Below, in pieces: positions 43,462 to 52,457 of a DNA stretch of 64,000 nucleotides. The stretch covers positions 1 through 64,000 of the forward strand of contig NZ_MRDE01000006.1 in NCBI RefSeq assembly GCF_001968835.1. The letters are read 5' to 3'. Both the position numbers and the translations under genes were made by a program. Origin of the DNA: Tersicoccus phoenicis. Lineage in GTDB: Bacteria; Actinomycetota; Actinomycetes; Actinomycetales; Micrococcaceae. Numbering within the stretch: the first letter of the stretch is position 1; each line of letters begins with the position of its first letter. Under the pieces are notes generated by a model. It saw only the letters and a list, made by a program, of their open reading frames with translations. It was not told the DNA's origin and did no database searches.

Positions 43462-44892
43462 ATGGCCTCCGTTCCCGCACGGCTGGCCGGGGATGCGTCC
43501 CCGGCCACTGACACCGACACCGCAGCTGCGCCGCCGGCGACCATCACGGTCCCGCTGGATCCGAGCCGGTTGCCGAACGGACTGGTGGGTCTGGTCGAGG
43601 CGACACGGGGTACGGGTGTTCCGGCGGTGTGGCTGCGTCGCGGCGACGGCCTCGTCGGCATCGGCACGGCCGCGCGGTACACGGTCTCCGGCCCCGAGCG
43701 CTTCGGCCGTGCCCGGCAGTGGTGGCGCGAGGTCACCGCGACCGCCCGACGCGAGAACCGAGTCGGCGGGCCCGGCACCGGTCCGCTCGCGTTCGGTTCC
43801 TTCGCCTTCGCCGGGGACTCCGCCTTCGCCTCCCGGCTGATCGTGCCCGAACTCGTCGTCGGGACGTCGGACGACGGCCGGTGCTGGTTGACGCAACAGA
43901 CCACCGCGGACGAGGCGCCGACCGCGCGGACGGCCTTCGCGGCTCTCGATGCCCTGCTCGCCGCCGCGCCCGCCGCTGACGTTGCTGGTGGTGCGGCGGG
44001 CGGCGCCCCTGCTGGTGCTGCTTCTGCTGGTGTCGTGCGCGGCCGGGTCCGGGACGGGTCCCTGACCGGGCAACAGTGGATGGACGCCGTCGCCGCGGGC
44101 GTGCGACGGATCAACGCCGGTGAACTGCACAAGCTGGTCCTGGCGCGCGACGTCGTCGTCGAACTCGACTCCCCCAGGGAACCCGCCGTCGTCCTCGCCG
44201 ACCTCGCCGAACGGTACCGGGACTGCTGGACCTACTCGGTGGAGGGACTGGTCGGTTCCACCCCCGAGATGCTGATCAAGGTCGAGGACAACGTGGCGCG
44301 TGCCCGGGTGCTGGCGGGCACGCTTGACCGGGCGAGCGCCCCGGCCGACGATCCCGATTACGCCCAGCGGGTGCTGTGGGGGTCGGACAAGCAGCGGCAG
44401 GAGCACGACTTCGCGATCACCTCCCTACTGGACCGGCTCACCAGCTACACCGACGCCATGACCGTCTCCAGCGAACCGTTCGTGCTGGAGCTGCCCAACG
44501 TGTGGCACCTGGCCTCGGACGTGACGGCCGTGCTCAACGACGCCCCTTCCCCCACCGGCAAGCACCGCACGCCCGGGGCCCTGGCGCTGGCCGAGGCCCT
44601 GCACCCCACGGCGGCGGTGTGCGGCACCCCGACGGCGACCGCCGCCGGGGTGATCAGCGAACTCGAGCACCTGGACCGGGGCCCGTACGCGGGTCCGGTC
44701 GGCTGGGTGGACGCGACCGGCAACGGCGAGTGGGGTATCGCCCTGCGCGGCGCGGTGCTGGAGAGCCCCACGACGGCCCGGTTGTTCGCCGGCTGTGGCA
44801 TCGTCGAGGCCTCGGACCCGGCGGCCGAGCTGCGCGAGACGTGGGCGAAGTTCCGGCCGATGCTGCAGGCCCTCGGCGTCCAGGCGCCCTGA
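43462..44892 (+). CDS. menF: Isochorismate synthase MenF
   Basis: This enzyme converts chorismate to isochorismate, the entry to menaquinone synthesis. The 476-residue protein has the chorismate-utilising domain: [91 protein letters not shown] and [20 protein letters not shown]. The N-terminal 60 residues are Ala/Pro-rich. A salicylate-forming or siderophore isochorismate synthase is less likely because menG and the tail enzymes are divergent neighbours. A rearranged partial copy lies 1 kb downstream, beyond the Mn catalase. Confidence 0.94.
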
Positions 44893-44901
44893 TTGGTCGG
44901 C

Positions 44902-45783
44902 TCACTCCCGCTTCAGCTTGTCCTGCACCGTGCCCGCCATCTTCTCGGCCACGTTGAGTAGCTCCGTGGTCCCGTAGAAGCGCGCGTCGGGATGTGTGAC
45001 CGGTGGCATCGGGACGCCGGCCATGGGCTCGGGCTGATAGCCGAACTCCGCCTTGCTGTCCGGGGTGGGGCCGGAGGCCCACGCGCCCTCGGACAGGTGC
45101 TCCCCGTCCGAGAACTGGTAGGTGGTGTAGGAGAACTCCGAGGCCTCCTTGGACTGGGGGAAGTTGCTGGGCACCGGCATCTGCTCGAGGCCGTCCGCCT
45201 TCAGTTCCTCCACGGCCGCCGCCCACTGGTTCTGGTGCATGGTGTCCCGGGCGAGCAGGAAGGACAGCAGATCCCGCACGCCGGAGTCGTCGGTCATGTG
45301 GTACAGCCGGGCGACCTGGGCCCGGCCCTGCATCTCGGCGTTCAGGTTGGAGGTCATGTCGGCCAGGAGGTTGCCGCTGGCGGTCACGTAGCCGCCGGTC
45401 CACGGGTTGCCCATGCTGTCCACCGGCCGAGCTCCCGCCCCGGCCACGATGGCGTGCTGCAGGTCGGTCCCGCCGACGACGGCGGCGACCGTCGGATCGT
45501 CCTGTACGGCGTCACCGGTGATGCCGAGTGGCGCCTTCTCGAGCAACTGCGCCACCATCGTGGCGAGCATCTCGACGTGCCCGAACTCCTCGGCGGCCGT
45601 ACTGAAGAGCAGGTCGCGGTACTTGCCGGGGATGTGCGCGTTCCAGGCCTGGAAGCTGTACTGCATGGCGACGGTGATCTCGCCGTACTGGCCGCCGATC
45701 ACTTCCTGGAGCTTGCGGGCGTACACGGCGTCGGGTTCGTTGGGCTTGGCGCGGTACTGCAGGGTCTGGCGGTGGAAGAACAT
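44902..45783 (-). CDS. Manganese catalase
   Basis: The 293-residue ferritin-like four-helix protein has a di-manganese site that dismutates hydrogen peroxide without heme. MFFHRQTLQYRAKPNEPDAV at the start, LQEVIGGQYGEITVAMQYSF, STAAEEFGHVEMLATMVAQL and SFLLARDTMHQNQWAAAVEE supply the Glu/His ligands, with the EEFGH and RD-x-x-HQ motifs present. The C-terminal 50 residues are Pro-rich, as in the actinobacterial family. It is convergent with menF, nine bases apart, and followed on its 5' side by the menF remnant. It backs up KatA, perhaps under iron limitation. Confidence 0.95.
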   Translation of the reverse strand: MFFHRQTLQYRAKPNEPDAVYARKLQEVIGGQYGEITVAMQYSFQAWNAHIPGKYRDLLFSTAAEEFGHVEMLATMVAQLLEKAPLGITGDAVQDDPTVAAVVGGTDLQHAIVAGAGARPVDSMGNPWTGGYVTASGNLLADMTSNLNAEMQGRAQVARLYHMTDDSGVRDLLSFLLARDTMHQNQWAAAVEELKADGLEQMPVPSNFPQSKEASEFSYTTYQFSDGEHLSEGAWASGPTPDSKAEFGYQPEPMAGVPMPPVTHPDARFYGTTELLNVAEKMAGTVQDKLKRE

Positions 45784-45939
45784 GAGAGGCCTCGTCTTCG
45801 TCGTCCTGTGCCCGACCTCGGCCGGATGCGTCGGCCGGGCCGCACCCGGCCGGGCGCGTGGTCCTAAGCCTACTGATCAGTGCGGGATCAGCAATAGACC
45901 ACAAAGGCGCGGAACCGCTTCCGAGAGCGAGGCCGACAC

Positions 45940-46357
45940 CGTGGTGCGTGGCCGGTGCTGGCGGGCACGCTGGACCGGGCGAGGGAAGAAGGGGCGTCAT
46001 TGAGCACGGCCGTCACGTCCGAGGCCAGGTGCCACACGTTGGGCAGCTCCAGCACGAACGGTTCGCTGGAGACGGTCATGGCGTCGGTGTAGCTGGTGAG
46101 CCGGTCCAGTAGGGAGGTGATCGCGAAGTCGTGCTCCTGCCGCTGTTTGTCCGACCCCCACAGCACCCGCTGGGCGTAATCGGGATCGTCGGCCGAGGCG
46201 CTCCGCCCTGCGGGGCGCGGTGCTGGAGTGCCCCACGACGGCGCGGCTGTTCGCCGGCTGTGGCATAGTCGAGGCCTCGGGCCCGGCGGCGGAGCTGCGG
46301 GAGATGTGGGCGAAGTTCCGGCCGATGCTGCAGGCGCTGGGCGTCCAAGCGCCCTGA
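45940..46357 (+). pseudogene. Rearranged second copy of menF
   Basis: A fragment of a second menF reads AGTLDRA in the plus sense up to about 45987, is interrupted by an inverted 215-bp segment, and resumes in the plus sense at 46204 as [20 protein letters not shown] to the native GCGCCCTGA end at 46357. The final 154 bases match the intact gene (44739-44892) with only scattered substitutions. The segment corresponding to 44550-44738 is missing. It cannot make an enzyme. The copy ends exactly where a duplicated piece of the next gene begins. The 45784-45939 stretch before it shows no gene. Confidence 0.85.
45988..46202 (-). repeat. Inverted 215-bp menF segment
   Basis: The minus strand reads [40 protein letters not shown] and [18 protein letters not shown], almost identical to the intact menF at 44335-44549 but in opposite orientation. 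Both ends are sharp. It forms a long inverted repeat with the intact menF about 1.5 kb away, a substrate for recombination through the Mn catalase gene. Confidence 0.85.
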
Positions 46358-46574
46358 ACTCTTCACCCCCGACCTCGGCACGGCGCCGCCGGTCGAGCGT
46401 TCCAGTGACTCCGGTGACTCCGGTGGCACCGGACCGGAGACCGCGACGTCCACCAAGCCGGTGCCCGAACCCGCGAGTTCTGTCAGTGGCAACGGGTTGA
46501 CTCATGACATGGAGGAACTCTTCACCCTCGACCTAGGCACGGCGCCGACGGTCGAGCGTGCCGGTGACCCCGGG
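46357..46574 (+). repeat. Direct repeat duplicating the DUF222 gene 5' segment
   Basis: About 58 bases at 46357-46414 recur with about 85-90% identity at 46516-46573. Both encode ELFT(P/L)DLGTAP(P/T)VER in the same frame. The first copy is fused to the menF remnant stop; the second is the start of the DUF222 gene. The duplication probably arose with the menF rearrangement. Confidence 0.8.
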
Positions 46575-48197
46575 GACGACGCCGCGCAAGAGCCGCTCGG
46601 CCGGGTGAACGCCGTCCCGCTCACGGTCGACGACATCGTCGGCCGTGTCCGCACGGTCGGCAAGGCGGGAGGCACCGCCGGGACCGACGAGCTCATCGGG
46701 GCGCTCGAGCAGATGAGACAGGTCGAGTCATGGCTGGCCGCGCGCAAGCACGCTCTCGTCCTCACCGCCGCGCGCTCCGCCGAACGTGACCACGAGGCGT
46801 GGATCGCCGCGCAGCCGACGTGGGATGAATCGCTGCCCGAGAGCACTTCGACGGTACCGGCCCGCAGTGGACTGGCACGCGCCGAACGACTCGCGATCGC
46901 CGAGCGCAGCGCCGTGGCGGAGATCGCCTGCGCGCTGCGCATCGCGGAAGGCGCGGCGTCCACGCTCCTCACGCAAGCCGAGCTCTTCGACGCGCGCCTG
47001 CCGGGGACCGCTGCCGCGCTGGAGGCGGGAACGATCACGGCCGCGGCCGCAGGGGTGATCCTCGAGAGCGCCGAGGAGTATCTCGGCCTGTCGATCACGG
47101 ACGCGCAGACCGAAGCCCGCGTGCTGACAGCGGTCGCCCAGACCGAGCGGTTCCTCCTGGACAAGGCGCTCACCGGCACCAAGGGGGAGGTGGCCGCCCG
47201 AGCACGCCGGTTGCGGGACCGGTTCCATCCCTTCTCCCCCCGGCGACGCCAGGAGCTTGCCCGAGCGGACCGGTGCGTGCGGGTGGGACCGGGCCGCGAC
47301 GGCATGGCGCATCTGACGGCCTGGCTGCCGGCGGTGGACGCCCACGCGATCGACCGCCAATTGTCGGCTTTGGCCCGCGCCGCCCTGGGGCCCCAGCTCG
47401 AGGACGCCCACGACCCCCGCCCGCAGGCTGATCCGCACTACGGCGGTGCCCCGGACGACCGTACCGTCGGTCAAGCGCGGGCCGACGTGCTCACGGACCT
47501 GCTCACCGGGCCAGCCGCAGCAACGAGGGCTGGAGTCGATGCCGGTGCAGGCTTCGATGCCAGTACCGGAGCCCGCGTCACGAGCGGCAAGGGTACGAGC
47601 TCGACCGCGCAGGCCATCGACGCCGGCACCCCACCCGCCATCAGCGGCCCGGTGAACGCACCGCCGTCGCTGGTGCTGACCATGCCGGCGTCCGTGCTGC
47701 TCGGCGGCGACGGTCCTGCGGTCTTCGGAGCGTTCGGGTGCGTCCCGGTGGAGGATGCCCGCCGGCTCGCGACGACGGCTACGTCCTTCACCCTGGCAGT
47801 CACGGTCCAGGACGACGACTCACCGACCGGCAGTCGGCTGGTCACGGCCGGTCGGCAGTACCGGATTCCCGCGGAGCTGCGTCGCCGGCTGCAGCTACGG
47901 GACGGCACCTGCCGGTTTCCCGGCTGTCGACGCGACGTCCTGCGCTGCGATCTGGACCACCGGATCGCCTGGGCCGACGGCGGCACCACCGACGAGGCCA
48001 ACCTGGAACACCTGTGCCGACGCCACCACGTGCTCAAGCACCATTCCGCCTGGCAGGTGACCGGCCCACCCGGCGAAGACCGGGCCGACGTCGACTCCGC
48101 TCCCCCGACCTCGGCATCGTCATCTCCATCGGCGCTGCACTGGGTGTCGCCCACGGGCCGGCGCTACCGGAGCGATCCGGACGATCCACCCTTCTGA
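46509..48197 (+). CDS. DUF222 and HNH endonuclease domain protein (13E12-like)
   Basis: The 562-residue protein has the helical DUF222 domain (AERLAIAERSAVAEIACALR, LRIAEGAASTLLTQAELFDA) in its first two thirds and a C-terminal HNH motif (CRFPGCRRDVLRCDLDHRI, then LCRRHHVLKHH) with the Cys4 zinc frame. The family is present in multiple copies in actinobacterial genomes (REP13E12 in mycobacteria) and is often near mobile or repeated DNA; its biological role is unknown. The start is uncertain: the ATG at 46509 has no good ribosome binding site and a GTG at 46461 is in frame. Confidence 0.85.
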   Translation: MEELFTLDLGTAPTVERAGDPGDDAAQEPLGRVNAVPLTVDDIVGRVRTVGKAGGTAGTDELIGALEQMRQVESWLAARKHALVLTAARSAERDHEAWIAAQPTWDESLPESTSTVPARSGLARAERLAIAERSAVAEIACALRIAEGAASTLLTQAELFDARLPGTAAALEAGTITAAAAGVILESAEEYLGLSITDAQTEARVLTAVAQTERFLLDKALTGTKGEVAARARRLRDRFHPFSPRRRQELARADRCVRVGPGRDGMAHLTAWLPAVDAHAIDRQLSALARAALGPQLEDAHDPRPQADPHYGGAPDDRTVGQARADVLTDLLTGPAAATRAGVDAGAGFDASTGARVTSGKGTSSTAQAIDAGTPPAISGPVNAPPSLVLTMPASVLLGGDGPAVFGAFGCVPVEDARRLATTATSFTLAVTVQDDDSPTGSRLVTAGRQYRIPAELRRRLQLRDGTCRFPGCRRDVLRCDLDHRIAWADGGTTDEANLEHLCRRHHVLKHHSAWQVTGPPGEDRADVDSAPPTSASSSPSALHWVSPTGRRYRSDPDDPPF

Positions 48198-48218
48198 CGG
48201 CTGCCCCGGAGCCGGGAC

Positions 48219-50609
48219 TCATGCGGCGCCGGCCGCCACCAGCAAGCTGTCCCAACCACCGTGACTGTTACGTAGTGCTTCCTCCGAGCAGAACAGGTAA
48301 CGCCACGTGCCGAAGCTTCCGTCGTCGTTGACGAACCGTGCCCACTCCTGAGCGGCCTCTCGCTTCGCTTCGACGTCCCGCCGCTGCACGTCGTGGTCCG
48401 CTTTGCCCTCGATCAGCCAATGGATTCCCACGCTGTCCACAGCGACGAAGTCCGGGAAGTAGCGGCCACCGGTGTCGAGTTCGATGAAAGCCGGGTCATT
48501 GGGCTGGAGGCGCAACCACCAAGCAATGTTCGGCGAGCCGTCGAGGATCTCGGCGAGGCGGCGTTCGGTGGTCTTCGCATCGAACGAGGCCACGGGCAGC
48601 ACCGACTTGCGCCAGCCGCTGTACCAACGTCCGCGCTCGAAGTCGGCGTAGCGATCGCGGACGTCGGTGGGCATAGGGCGCGGCTCGACAGGAAGAGTGA
48701 CGGGTCTGAACGCATATTGCGGCTGCAGCCGGCGCGCGTTGTACTTCTGCCGGATCAGTACGTCGATGCCCCGAACGGCATGGTGGGCACGTTCTGCGCC
48801 CCAATGGATTTCGCTGTCCGCTTCCGCGCCAGCTCCGGCGACGAACGCACGAACGACGCGCCGAGCCGCATTGAACTCGGCCAAGGACTCCTCTACCAGC
48901 CCGAGGCCGAGGACCCGCGTCTCCAGTTCGGTCGTCACCTGATCGAGGGAGATCCACGCCTGGCGGGCTTCTCCGGGGTCCTGCGCCTCCCGGCGGATCT
49001 CGACATCGCCGCGACGCGTCCGTCTGGCGGCAAGCGCCTCGCGGATGAGCGGGATGCGGATCTCGTGCGCGAATGCGGCTCCGGCGGCTCGAGCGTCGGC
49101 GTCGTCGATCAGCGACAGGCTGAAGCGGACCGGGAGTACTTCCCGCTCACGACGCGGGAACCGGATCACCGGCGCACCACTGACACGGTGAAGTGTGCGG
49201 TACTCGACAGCGTCTCGTCGCCCTTCGGCCTCGGCCACCTCGTACTCCTTCAGGATCAAGGCGGCCGCGCCGTCGACCTGCTCGCCGTCGATCACCCGCG
49301 GAGGCGCCACCAGGCGGAGTGTCCCCTGTTCCTGCACCAGGTCGACCTGACCGGCTGCGTGCTGCCGTGCCCGCAGCTCAGCCTCGACATCGGTCGGTTC
49401 GCCCGTCGCAGCGCTTTCGCCGGGCGCCACGATCCGCTCGATGAGCGCGTCCTTCTGCTCCAGGAGTTTCCGGTAGGAGTCGTGTGCGACCAGATCCACG
49501 GTGTCAATCATGGGCACGCCGACGCGACGCCCGTAGGGAAGCCGCAAGCCACGACCGAGGATCTGCTCGGTTAAAGCTTCGGAGGCAAGCCGGCGTCGAG
49601 CGACGATGACGCCGATGTTCTTGACGTCCCAGCCCTCCTTGAGTTTGTCGACGCTGACGACAGCACGGATCGGCGAGTCCGGCGCCTCGACCGAGGCCAG
49701 AGCCTGCAGCGCCGTGTCCGAGGACTGCGAGGTGACTTCCAGCACCGCCGCCGGGTCACCGATGTACGCCTCGCCGGCCAGCAGGTCGGCCGTCTCGCGG
49801 GCATGTTGAACGGTCTGGCACACCACGAACAGCACCGGGTTGATCGCCCGTTCTCCGGTGGCGTCCGCCCACGTTCGGTAGGCGGCGGCCTTCACCGTCC
49901 GCAGATGACAAGCGTCGGCGAGCTGGGTAGCGAGGTCGTGATGCCCGTCCTGCCGGTACACAATGACGGGAATCTTCACGAGCCCGTCGGCGATCGCCTC
50001 GGCGAGACTGTATCGGTAGATCACCTTGGACTCGTCAGCTGGGTCGGGCGTCGCGGTGAGCCCGATCAGGGCGCGTGGATTCAGGTCCCGGATCGCGGAC
50101 GAGAACGCCTTCGCCTGGGAACGATAGACATGGTGCTCGTCGGCGATCACGACCAGGTCGTCCGCTGACTGGAGGTGGGAGTAGAGGTCCCCACCGATGA
50201 ACTCGTCCAGCTCGCGCACCCGGCGGGAGGTGTTCGCCGCCGGGCGGATCAACTGCTGAACCGTGAACACAAACAGCTTCAGGGTGCCCGAGTCGTGCAG
50301 GGCATCGCCGACCTGTCCCCGGGAGAAGTTCTCGGCCGTGATCAGGAGCGGTTGGTGGTCGGCACCGGGAACGTGCTTGGGGCTTCCCGGACTGAAGTTG
50401 GCGATCGTCTTGTCCTGGATCGTCCTGCCCGGAGTCACCACCAGGATGTTGCGAATGCCCTGGGCGGCCAGGTATTCGACGACGGCGGCGGCCAAGTAGG
50501 TCTTCCCGACGCCCGTTGCCAGATCGCACACGACCTCGTGGAACCCGTCGTCGTGGATCTCTCCCACGATGCGTGACAGGGCCGCCTTGTTCGGTGTGCG
50601 CAGATCCAT
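48219..50609 (-). CDS. Type III restriction endonuclease subunit Res
   Basis: The 796-residue frame carries the helicase part (LATGVGKTYLAAAVVEYLAA as Walker A; VVIADEHHVYRSQA as DExH; LIGLTATPDPADES; ILGRGLRLPYGRRVGV) and a C-terminal PD-(D/E)xK nuclease (GGRYFPDFVAV with WLIEGKADHD). Res translocates and cuts DNA only as a complex with Mod. The visible start is the ATG at 50609, but a second frame from an ATG at 50656, overlapping the mod stop as ATGA, reads MTWLQYDPGLIDEIAGW and would join this one if one base were missing near 50610. That looks like the native N-terminus. Confidence 0.9.
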   Translation of the reverse strand: MDLRTPNKAALSRIVGEIHDDGFHEVVCDLATGVGKTYLAAAVVEYLAAQGIRNILVVTPGRTIQDKTIANFSPGSPKHVPGADHQPLLITAENFSRGQVGDALHDSGTLKLFVFTVQQLIRPAANTSRRVRELDEFIGGDLYSHLQSADDLVVIADEHHVYRSQAKAFSSAIRDLNPRALIGLTATPDPADESKVIYRYSLAEAIADGLVKIPVIVYRQDGHHDLATQLADACHLRTVKAAAYRTWADATGERAINPVLFVVCQTVQHARETADLLAGEAYIGDPAAVLEVTSQSSDTALQALASVEAPDSPIRAVVSVDKLKEGWDVKNIGVIVARRRLASEALTEQILGRGLRLPYGRRVGVPMIDTVDLVAHDSYRKLLEQKDALIERIVAPGESAATGEPTDVEAELRARQHAAGQVDLVQEQGTLRLVAPPRVIDGEQVDGAAALILKEYEVAEAEGRRDAVEYRTLHRVSGAPVIRFPRREREVLPVRFSLSLIDDADARAAGAAFAHEIRIPLIREALAARRTRRGDVEIRREAQDPGEARQAWISLDQVTTELETRVLGLGLVEESLAEFNAARRVVRAFVAGAGAEADSEIHWGAERAHHAVRGIDVLIRQKYNARRLQPQYAFRPVTLPVEPRPMPTDVRDRYADFERGRWYSGWRKSVLPVASFDAKTTERRLAEILDGSPNIAWWLRLQPNDPAFIELDTGGRYFPDFVAVDSVGIHWLIEGKADHDVQRRDVEAKREAAQEWARFVNDDGSFGTWRYLFCSEEALRNSHGGWDSLLVAAGAA

Positions 50610-50652
50610 CCGGCGATCTCATCGATCAGTCCGGGATCGTACTGAAGCCAGG

Positions 50653-52317
50653 TCATCGCACGACACCACGGTGCAGCAGGTCCCGCGGCGCCTTCCGCAA
50701 CCGAGAGCCGGGGCTCAACTCCTCGAGCAACACCCCAGCCTCCGGTGTGGCGGCCTTGCCGACCACCACGGTGCGTTCTCCGTCACCCAGCCGTGCCACC
50801 ACGGCACGGACCACCGCATCGTCGACCACCCCGTCGATGACCGCCAGCCGTTCACGCCCCCTGGCGCCGGCGAAGGGCGGATCGCACTCGGTGGTGAAGC
50901 CGAGCTGCGCCGCGATAGCCCGGGAAAGGGCGCTGCCGGTGGCCCACGCGGCCAGGAAGACGTGCCCGTCCGCAATGTCATACAGCGACGGGCCCACCTC
51001 CACGTGCCGGAAGCCGCCGCCACCGCTCCAGGCCGTGGCTTCGGTGACACCGCCCGGGTCTGCACCGTTGACGACCTTCTCCAGGCGCGGCCGGGTGAAG
51101 GTTTCGACGGTTTCGGGCGACAGTTCGACCGTCACCCACCGGCGCCCCATCTTGTGCGCCACGGCAGCCGTCGTTCCGGAGCCGCCGAAGCAGTCGAGGA
51201 CGATGTCACCGGGATTGGTAGCGATATGGATCACGCGCTGGAGCAGTCGCTCGGGCTTGGGGGTGGAGAAGGGAATCATCCCTTTGAACAGAGCCTGAAT
51301 CTCGTTCTTGCCACTTTGATTGTGTCCGACTTCGGCGTAAGGCCAGAGAGTCTGAGGCACTCGCCCACGAACCTCCGACAGAAATCGCTTCAGAGCTGGG
51401 ATGTTGTCGGATCGTTCACCCCACCAGATCCGTCCGTCCTGATCCAGCTCTCGGAGACGCCCTTCGGAGACGCGCCAATATCTTCCCGGGGGCGGACCAG
51501 GGATGACTCGACCGCTTGGCGTCGTCACCGGGTAGACGCCCAATCTGTAGGACTTGTTGGCTACAAGGTCACCGGGCTTCCAGACACCACGCACGTCTTC
51601 GTCGGGATTCCGGTATGCAGCGTCCATCTCGGGTGTGCGCGGAAGTGGCTGCGGCCGCCACACCTCGGCGTCGCGCGCGTATACGAGAACGTAGTCGTGA
51701 TCCACAGACAAGTGACGCGCCGAGTTCTTTGGGCTGTAGACCTTCTCCCAGATGACCGTGGCGATGAAGTTCGCTCTTCCGAACACTTCGTCCATGAGCA
51801 CCGGGCAGTACGCCATCTCGGCGTCGTCGAGGTGGACCCACACCGAGCCGTCGGGGGCGAGGAGATCGCGGATGAGCAGCAGCCGGTCCCGCATCATCGT
51901 CAGCCACACCGAGTGCTCCAGGGCATCGTCGTAGTGGTCGAACGCCTGGCCCGTGTTGAACGGCGGGTCGATGTACACCAGCTTGACCCTGCCCCGATAC
52001 TCCGAGGCGTACTCGGGAATGCGCGTGAGCGCGTGCAGAGCGTCGTACGAGTCCCCGGTGATGAGCTGGTTGTCAGTGGTGGGAGCAGACGTATCACCGA
52101 CCTCGCCCACGCTGGACCGCTCCTGGAGGAGACGCACCTCGGTGACCCGCGGATCGTCCCGGGGCACCCAGGCATAGCCGCCGTCCGGCGTCCCGATCAG
52201 CGCCCGGTCCTTCCCAACCCAGGACAGCGTCAGACACCCCACGGTAGACCGTCCCGACGTCGCCGCCATCGCATCAGCCGTCGGTGAGGCCGACGTGGTC
52301 GTGTCCGGGGAAATCAC
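50653..52317 (-). CDS. Type III modification methyltransferase Mod
   Basis: A 554-residue DNA adenine/cytosine-N4 methyltransferase of the beta class. The catalytic DPPFNTG (in RVKLVYIDPPFNTGQAF) precedes the SAM-binding FGGSGTTAAVAHKMGRRW, with a central target-recognition region between (YSPKNSARHLSVDHDYVLVY through PQTLWPYAEVGHNQSGKNEI). It methylates one strand of an asymmetric site and supplies recognition for Res. The GTG at 52317 is the most upstream start; the first 35 residues are Ser/Thr-rich and may not be translated. The recognition sequence cannot be read from the gene. Confidence 0.9.
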   Translation of the reverse strand: MISPDTTTSASPTADAMAATSGRSTVGCLTLSWVGKDRALIGTPDGGYAWVPRDDPRVTEVRLLQERSSVGEVGDTSAPTTDNQLITGDSYDALHALTRIPEYASEYRGRVKLVYIDPPFNTGQAFDHYDDALEHSVWLTMMRDRLLLIRDLLAPDGSVWVHLDDAEMAYCPVLMDEVFGRANFIATVIWEKVYSPKNSARHLSVDHDYVLVYARDAEVWRPQPLPRTPEMDAAYRNPDEDVRGVWKPGDLVANKSYRLGVYPVTTPSGRVIPGPPPGRYWRVSEGRLRELDQDGRIWWGERSDNIPALKRFLSEVRGRVPQTLWPYAEVGHNQSGKNEIQALFKGMIPFSTPKPERLLQRVIHIATNPGDIVLDCFGGSGTTAAVAHKMGRRWVTVELSPETVETFTRPRLEKVVNGADPGGVTEATAWSGGGGFRHVEVGPSLYDIADGHVFLAAWATGSALSRAIAAQLGFTTECDPPFAGARGRERLAVIDGVVDDAVVRAVVARLGDGERTVVVGKAATPEAGVLLEELSPGSRLRKAPRDLLHRGVVR

Positions 52318-52457
52318 AGCTCCACCCTAGAGCTTCGCCCCTCCCACTCGGCGCGCGAAACAGCGCAGACACATCAGGTGGTGCATACTCGTCAGAACAT
52401 ACGCAATGGCAGTGAGCCGTTGCCTGCTTGTTGCCTGCCCGTTCACAGGAGGACGTT

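Follow-up and report, generated by a model that had tools for sequence, protein, structure and literature searches.

Downstream of its intact menF, the isochorismate synthase gene of vitamin K biosynthesis, Tersicoccus phoenicis carries a second, rearranged piece of menF, and the two enclose a manganese catalase gene. What is this second piece, how did it come to lie there, and can it act as a switch for the gene between? We addressed these questions in the 64-kb stretch of DNA that was analysed, hereafter the window. The intact gene (copy c1) occupies 43462-44892 on the plus strand and encodes a 476-aa protein recognised by Pfam Chorismate_bind (4.7e-62) and by TIGR00543 isochor_syn (235.8 bits; cut-off 224.75). 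The catalase gene (44902-45783, minus strand, 293 aa; Pfam Mn_catalase 1.8e-97 and the NF052557 equivalog above its cut-off) lies 9 bp past the menF stop codon and is convergent with menF. Its upstream flank (45784-45934) extends to the point at which menF-derived sequence resumes.

A repeat search and whole-genome BLAST recovered three menF-derived blocks at the positions given in the original prediction. The head block (45935-45983, plus strand, equivalent to 44287-44336) is 90% identical to menF by BLAST (E 2.8e-11) and contains a 1-bp deletion in the alignment. The inverted block (45988-46202, minus strand, the reverse complement of 44335-44549) is identical at 212 of 215 positions (98.6%, E 2.1e-105), and its longest perfect run is 146 bp. 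The tail block (46204-46357, plus strand, equivalent to 44739-44892) is 92% identical, with homology that in both copies runs to the menF stop codon and no further. Because the whole 64-kb window contains no inverted 20-mer match besides the 215-bp block, the match of the remnant lies far beyond chance. The junctions are abrupt and have little homology: the left one holds a filler, GGAA, 4-5 bp long (45984-45987), which may perhaps reflect slippage of GAAG, and the right one consists of a common TCGCC and one extra C. With its 5' truncation at about 44284 of menF, its frameshifted head, its inverted middle and the loss of 189 bp (44550-44738), this piece is a rearranged menF pseudogene, unable to encode the enzyme. 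The prediction of a menF piece with an internal 215-bp inversion and 189 bp missing is thus borne out; what had been called a second copy of menF is indeed menF-derived in all three blocks, but its 5' truncation makes it a remnant and not a full copy.

Could these blocks be menF reads joined chimerically by the assembler? The T. phoenicis DSM 30849T sequence is a short-read draft of 3,210,299 bp in 132 scaffolds, produced from MiSeq 2 x 300 bp reads with Platanus (PMC5374230). However, all three blocks carry substitutions of their own relative to menF, reads of this length exceed the inverted block of ~220 bp, and the flanks are collinear with those of a relative, Tersicoccus sp. Bi-70. We regard an assembly artefact as very unlikely.

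To place the remnant in its genomic context, we compared three Tersicoccus species genomes, among them a single T. phoenicis genome, whose nearest relatives are T. solisilvae and Tersicoccus sp. Bi-70 (family Micrococcaceae). In T. solisilvae, menF is followed after ~4 bp by the leader sequence of an ABC operon, and in Bi-70 the order is menF, a DUF222-HNH gene, ABC operon. The T. phoenicis remnant is likewise followed by a DUF222-HNH (13E12-type) gene (46461-48197, plus strand; Pfam DUF222 3.5e-30, HNH 7.6e-5) with an orthologue at the equivalent place in Bi-70. The remnant tail and this gene are collinear with the Bi-70 menF tail and DUF222 gene, and the intergenic sequence between them has been deleted up to the stop codon. 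Therefore, the remnant stands where a native menF 3' end would be expected.

The catalase has a different distribution. We found no manganese catalase gene in the T. solisilvae or Bi-70 genomes, and within the Micrococcaceae its occurrence is patchy (72/295 genomes), the best relative having 85% amino acid identity. Of about 80 other menF loci examined, not one has a catalase close to menF, so that no donor with menF beside catalase emerged from this set. The catalase flanks gave no donor either: beyond the coding sequence, similarity to catalase relatives is lost, on the upstream side within ~10 bp. Cargo that has no counterpart in the relatives is thus flanked by an intact anchor gene on one side and a truncated version of it on the other, and the truncated copy is stranded in the ancestral downstream context. 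Read in this way, the remnant is probably a decaying leftover of a displaced menF 3' end, for which no role has been demonstrated.

The direction of the gain could also be the reverse, with the DUF222 side as the incoming one: menF and catalase would be resident, and a donor menF 3' part, together with the DUF222 and restriction genes, would have entered by homology anchored on the ABC-transporter side. Such an event yields the same structure, and the DUF222 and restriction-modification genes, too, vary between species. Nevertheless, the catalase is missing from both relatives and the adjacency of menF and DUF222 is present in Bi-70, and we consider this reversed direction distinctly improbable.

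The two tails differ in a manner that bears on their age. We polarised the differences between the copies with two relatives, T. solisilvae and Bi-70. The tails of c1 and the remnant differ at 12 of 151 aligned sites, of which 4 changes are private to c1, 6 are private to the remnant and 2 are ambiguous; 6 further changes are common to both copies relative to both relatives. Among the 12 differences on which the test rests, 9 are synonymous, against 28% expected under neutrality (P = 0.0009); for the remnant-private changes alone, the bias gives P = 0.053. The divergence between the copies (8%) compares with 10.6% between the c1 tail and the T. solisilvae menF tail. Because three quarters of the differences are synonymous, divergence of the tails probably took place between functional alleles of different lineages, both of them coding, rather than within a recent duplicate pair.

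The inverted block has a different history. It carries just three differences; c1 has no private change here, and each of the three is a G:C to A:T change found only in the remnant. Since its divergence is significantly lower than that of the tail (98.6% versus 92% identity; Fisher P = 0.0025), it would be either younger than the tail or refreshed by gene conversion from the intact menF after an older inversion. The homology had been described as high and attributed to a recent duplication plus inversion; the description fits the inverted block, which alone appears young, but not the tail, with its 8% divergence and mostly synonymous changes.

These data also bear on an alternative in which the genome duplicated its own menF 3' part, the catalase entered between the two copies, and the second of them decayed afterwards by internal inversion and deletion. 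The 6 changes common to the tails make them closest to each other, and head, inverted block and tail together span a contiguous stretch of menF (44287-44892) save for the 189-bp gap, as such a segmental duplication would predict. On the other hand, mostly synonymous differences are unexpected in a decaying duplicate, and the lower divergence of the inverted block does not fit a single event unless gene conversion acted. We therefore view segmental duplication as possible but doubtful. Tandem duplication of the whole unit of menF and catalase was rejected, as no further catalase follows the second copy.

The model that we consider best, and that we judge somewhat better than even, is gain of the catalase with displacement of the menF 3' end by recombination, followed by a local inverted repair. 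In the first step, incoming DNA carrying a menF 3' part and then the manganese catalase gene would have recombined with the resident menF. The menF side would have joined by homologous recombination and the other end by an illegitimate join, or by a single crossover of a circularised fragment. This would have left one intact menF with the catalase behind it, and would have stranded the previous menF 3' part (from about 44284) before the DUF222 gene. In the second step, the stranded copy would have been free to decay: a break or stalled fork within it may have been repaired from the intact menF 1.4 kb away, in inverted orientation and through joins with little or no homology, such that 402 bp (44337-44738) were swapped for a 215-bp inverted copy. 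What exists today is an intact menF, a catalase gene and a single menF scar. If this model holds, then the scar shows that a stress gene can enter the genome at the 3' end of a housekeeping gene, and the younger inverted block allows the two events to be separated.

Comparable events are known. Homology-facilitated illegitimate recombination, or single crossover of circularised linear DNA, is known to join incoming DNA by homology on one side and non-homologously on the other, adding new DNA and possibly leaving part of the anchor gene in duplicate (PMC3240628). The T. phoenicis locus would share these features; unlike those cases, the event is deduced from one genome, with donor and original junction unseen. 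Displaced 3' gene ends are also left behind in the type VI effector-immunity arrays of Vibrio (PMC5361080), where, as proposed here, a new module anchored in a common region displaces the old 3' part downstream, where it is left as an orphan. In T. phoenicis, by contrast, a catalase forms the cargo and a housekeeping gene the anchor; the remnant is single rather than part of an array, and no toxin-immunity logic is involved. The local inverted copy and its joins with little homology resemble short-range template-switch or inverted-duplication events, with the difference that 215 bp would have been copied from 1.4 kb away into an existing remnant. At prophage e14 of E. coli, the intact icd gene has a replaced 3' end, and its old 3' end persists as the pseudogene icdC beyond the insertion. 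Similarly, T. phoenicis would have an intact menF with a replaced 3' end and the old one stranded past the insertion; unlike icd/icdC, its island has no identified integrase or short attachment core, and its remnant is internally inverted. The scar at the variable site downstream of menF belongs to a known kind of rearranged pseudogene.

We also considered site-specific insertion of an island at the menF 3' end. No integrase was found among the tested island genes, and the island ends share no short direct repeat or att core other than the menF tail; this candidate was rejected.

The orientation of the repeats raises the question of whether the catalase can be flipped, as the original prediction had proposed. 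The arms (44335-44549 and 45988-46202) flank the catalase in inverted orientation 1.4 kb apart, and with 98.6% identity and a 146-bp perfect run they form a possible RecA substrate; in this respect the proposal stands. When we performed the flip in silico, however, MenF was cut to 395 aa, comprising 363 of its 476 native residues and 32 junk residues. We found no second isochorismate synthase in the genome, in which just one further full chorismate-binding gene occurs, TrpE-like by its sequence. As the pathway is generally understood, menF would be required here, and the flip is expected to cost menaquinone synthesis. Because the only menF would be truncated, a flip of the catalase is unlikely to be tolerated. 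An invertible switch that turns the catalase on and off would, moreover, carry the gene's own upstream flank inside the flipped part, and Pfam identified no recombinase among the main genes of 44902-52317 (catalase, DUF222-HNH, ResIII and methylase). A phase switch of the catalase was rejected, since inversion would disrupt the sole menF; no benign switch is plausible, and we give this reading almost no weight. Most likely, the scar is a product of ordinary gene gain by recombination and not a genetic switch.

A crossover between the directly repeated tails has a different outcome in silico: a 1,465-bp deletion removes the catalase and leaves the full 476-aa MenF. Perfect runs reach 146 bp in the inverted arms but 30 bp in the direct tails, and thus physical recombination may favour inversion while selection favours deletion. 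The locus therefore carries a prediction, namely that the catalase can be lost through a 1,465-bp deletion, which would bring back a normal menF. Apart from the scar and this prediction, what we see is ordinary genome wear.

The inverted block might also act in regulation. A rightward transcript through 45988-46202 would contain a 215-nt menF antisense (98.6% complementary) that could lower menaquinone synthesis and tie it to the catalase locus; we deem such a role extremely improbable. A promoter and terminator scan, which covers sigma-70-like sites only, detected nothing. On the minus strand, a 205-aa open frame (45888-46505) spans the inverted block and reads it in the frame used by menF (Chorismate_bind 8e-9). 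This frame looks fortuitous, though gene callers may annotate it.

The scar lies in an interval, from menF to the amino-acid ABC transporter operon (from 52428), whose content (44893-52345, right edge approximate) differs in each Tersicoccus genome. T. solisilvae lacks the interval, Bi-70 has DUF222-HNH, and T. phoenicis has the catalase, the remnant, DUF222-HNH and restriction-modification genes. Insertions seem to have occurred repeatedly at the spot directly behind the menF stop codon. The restriction-modification genes, identified by Pfam, are a ResIII helicase gene (48219-50609) and an N6/N4 DNA methylase gene (50653-52317), both on the minus strand. Their region (48219-52317) has a GC content of ~0.63-0.68, compared with 0.72-0.74 around it, and the pair probably constitutes a restriction-modification system acquired by horizontal transfer.

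The 5' end of the DUF222 gene has a structure of its own. The repeat search identified a 63-bp direct repeat (46356-46577, plus strand) with units at 46356-46418 and 46515-46577 that are 89% identical, and the first unit is fused straight to the menF stop codon. The DUF222 frame of Tersicoccus sp. Bi-70 contains a similar repeated MEELF motif near its N-terminus. Each Tersicoccus genome has about ten DUF222 genes, several of them at contig ends, which suggests that near-identical copies break the assembly and could act as recombination sites.
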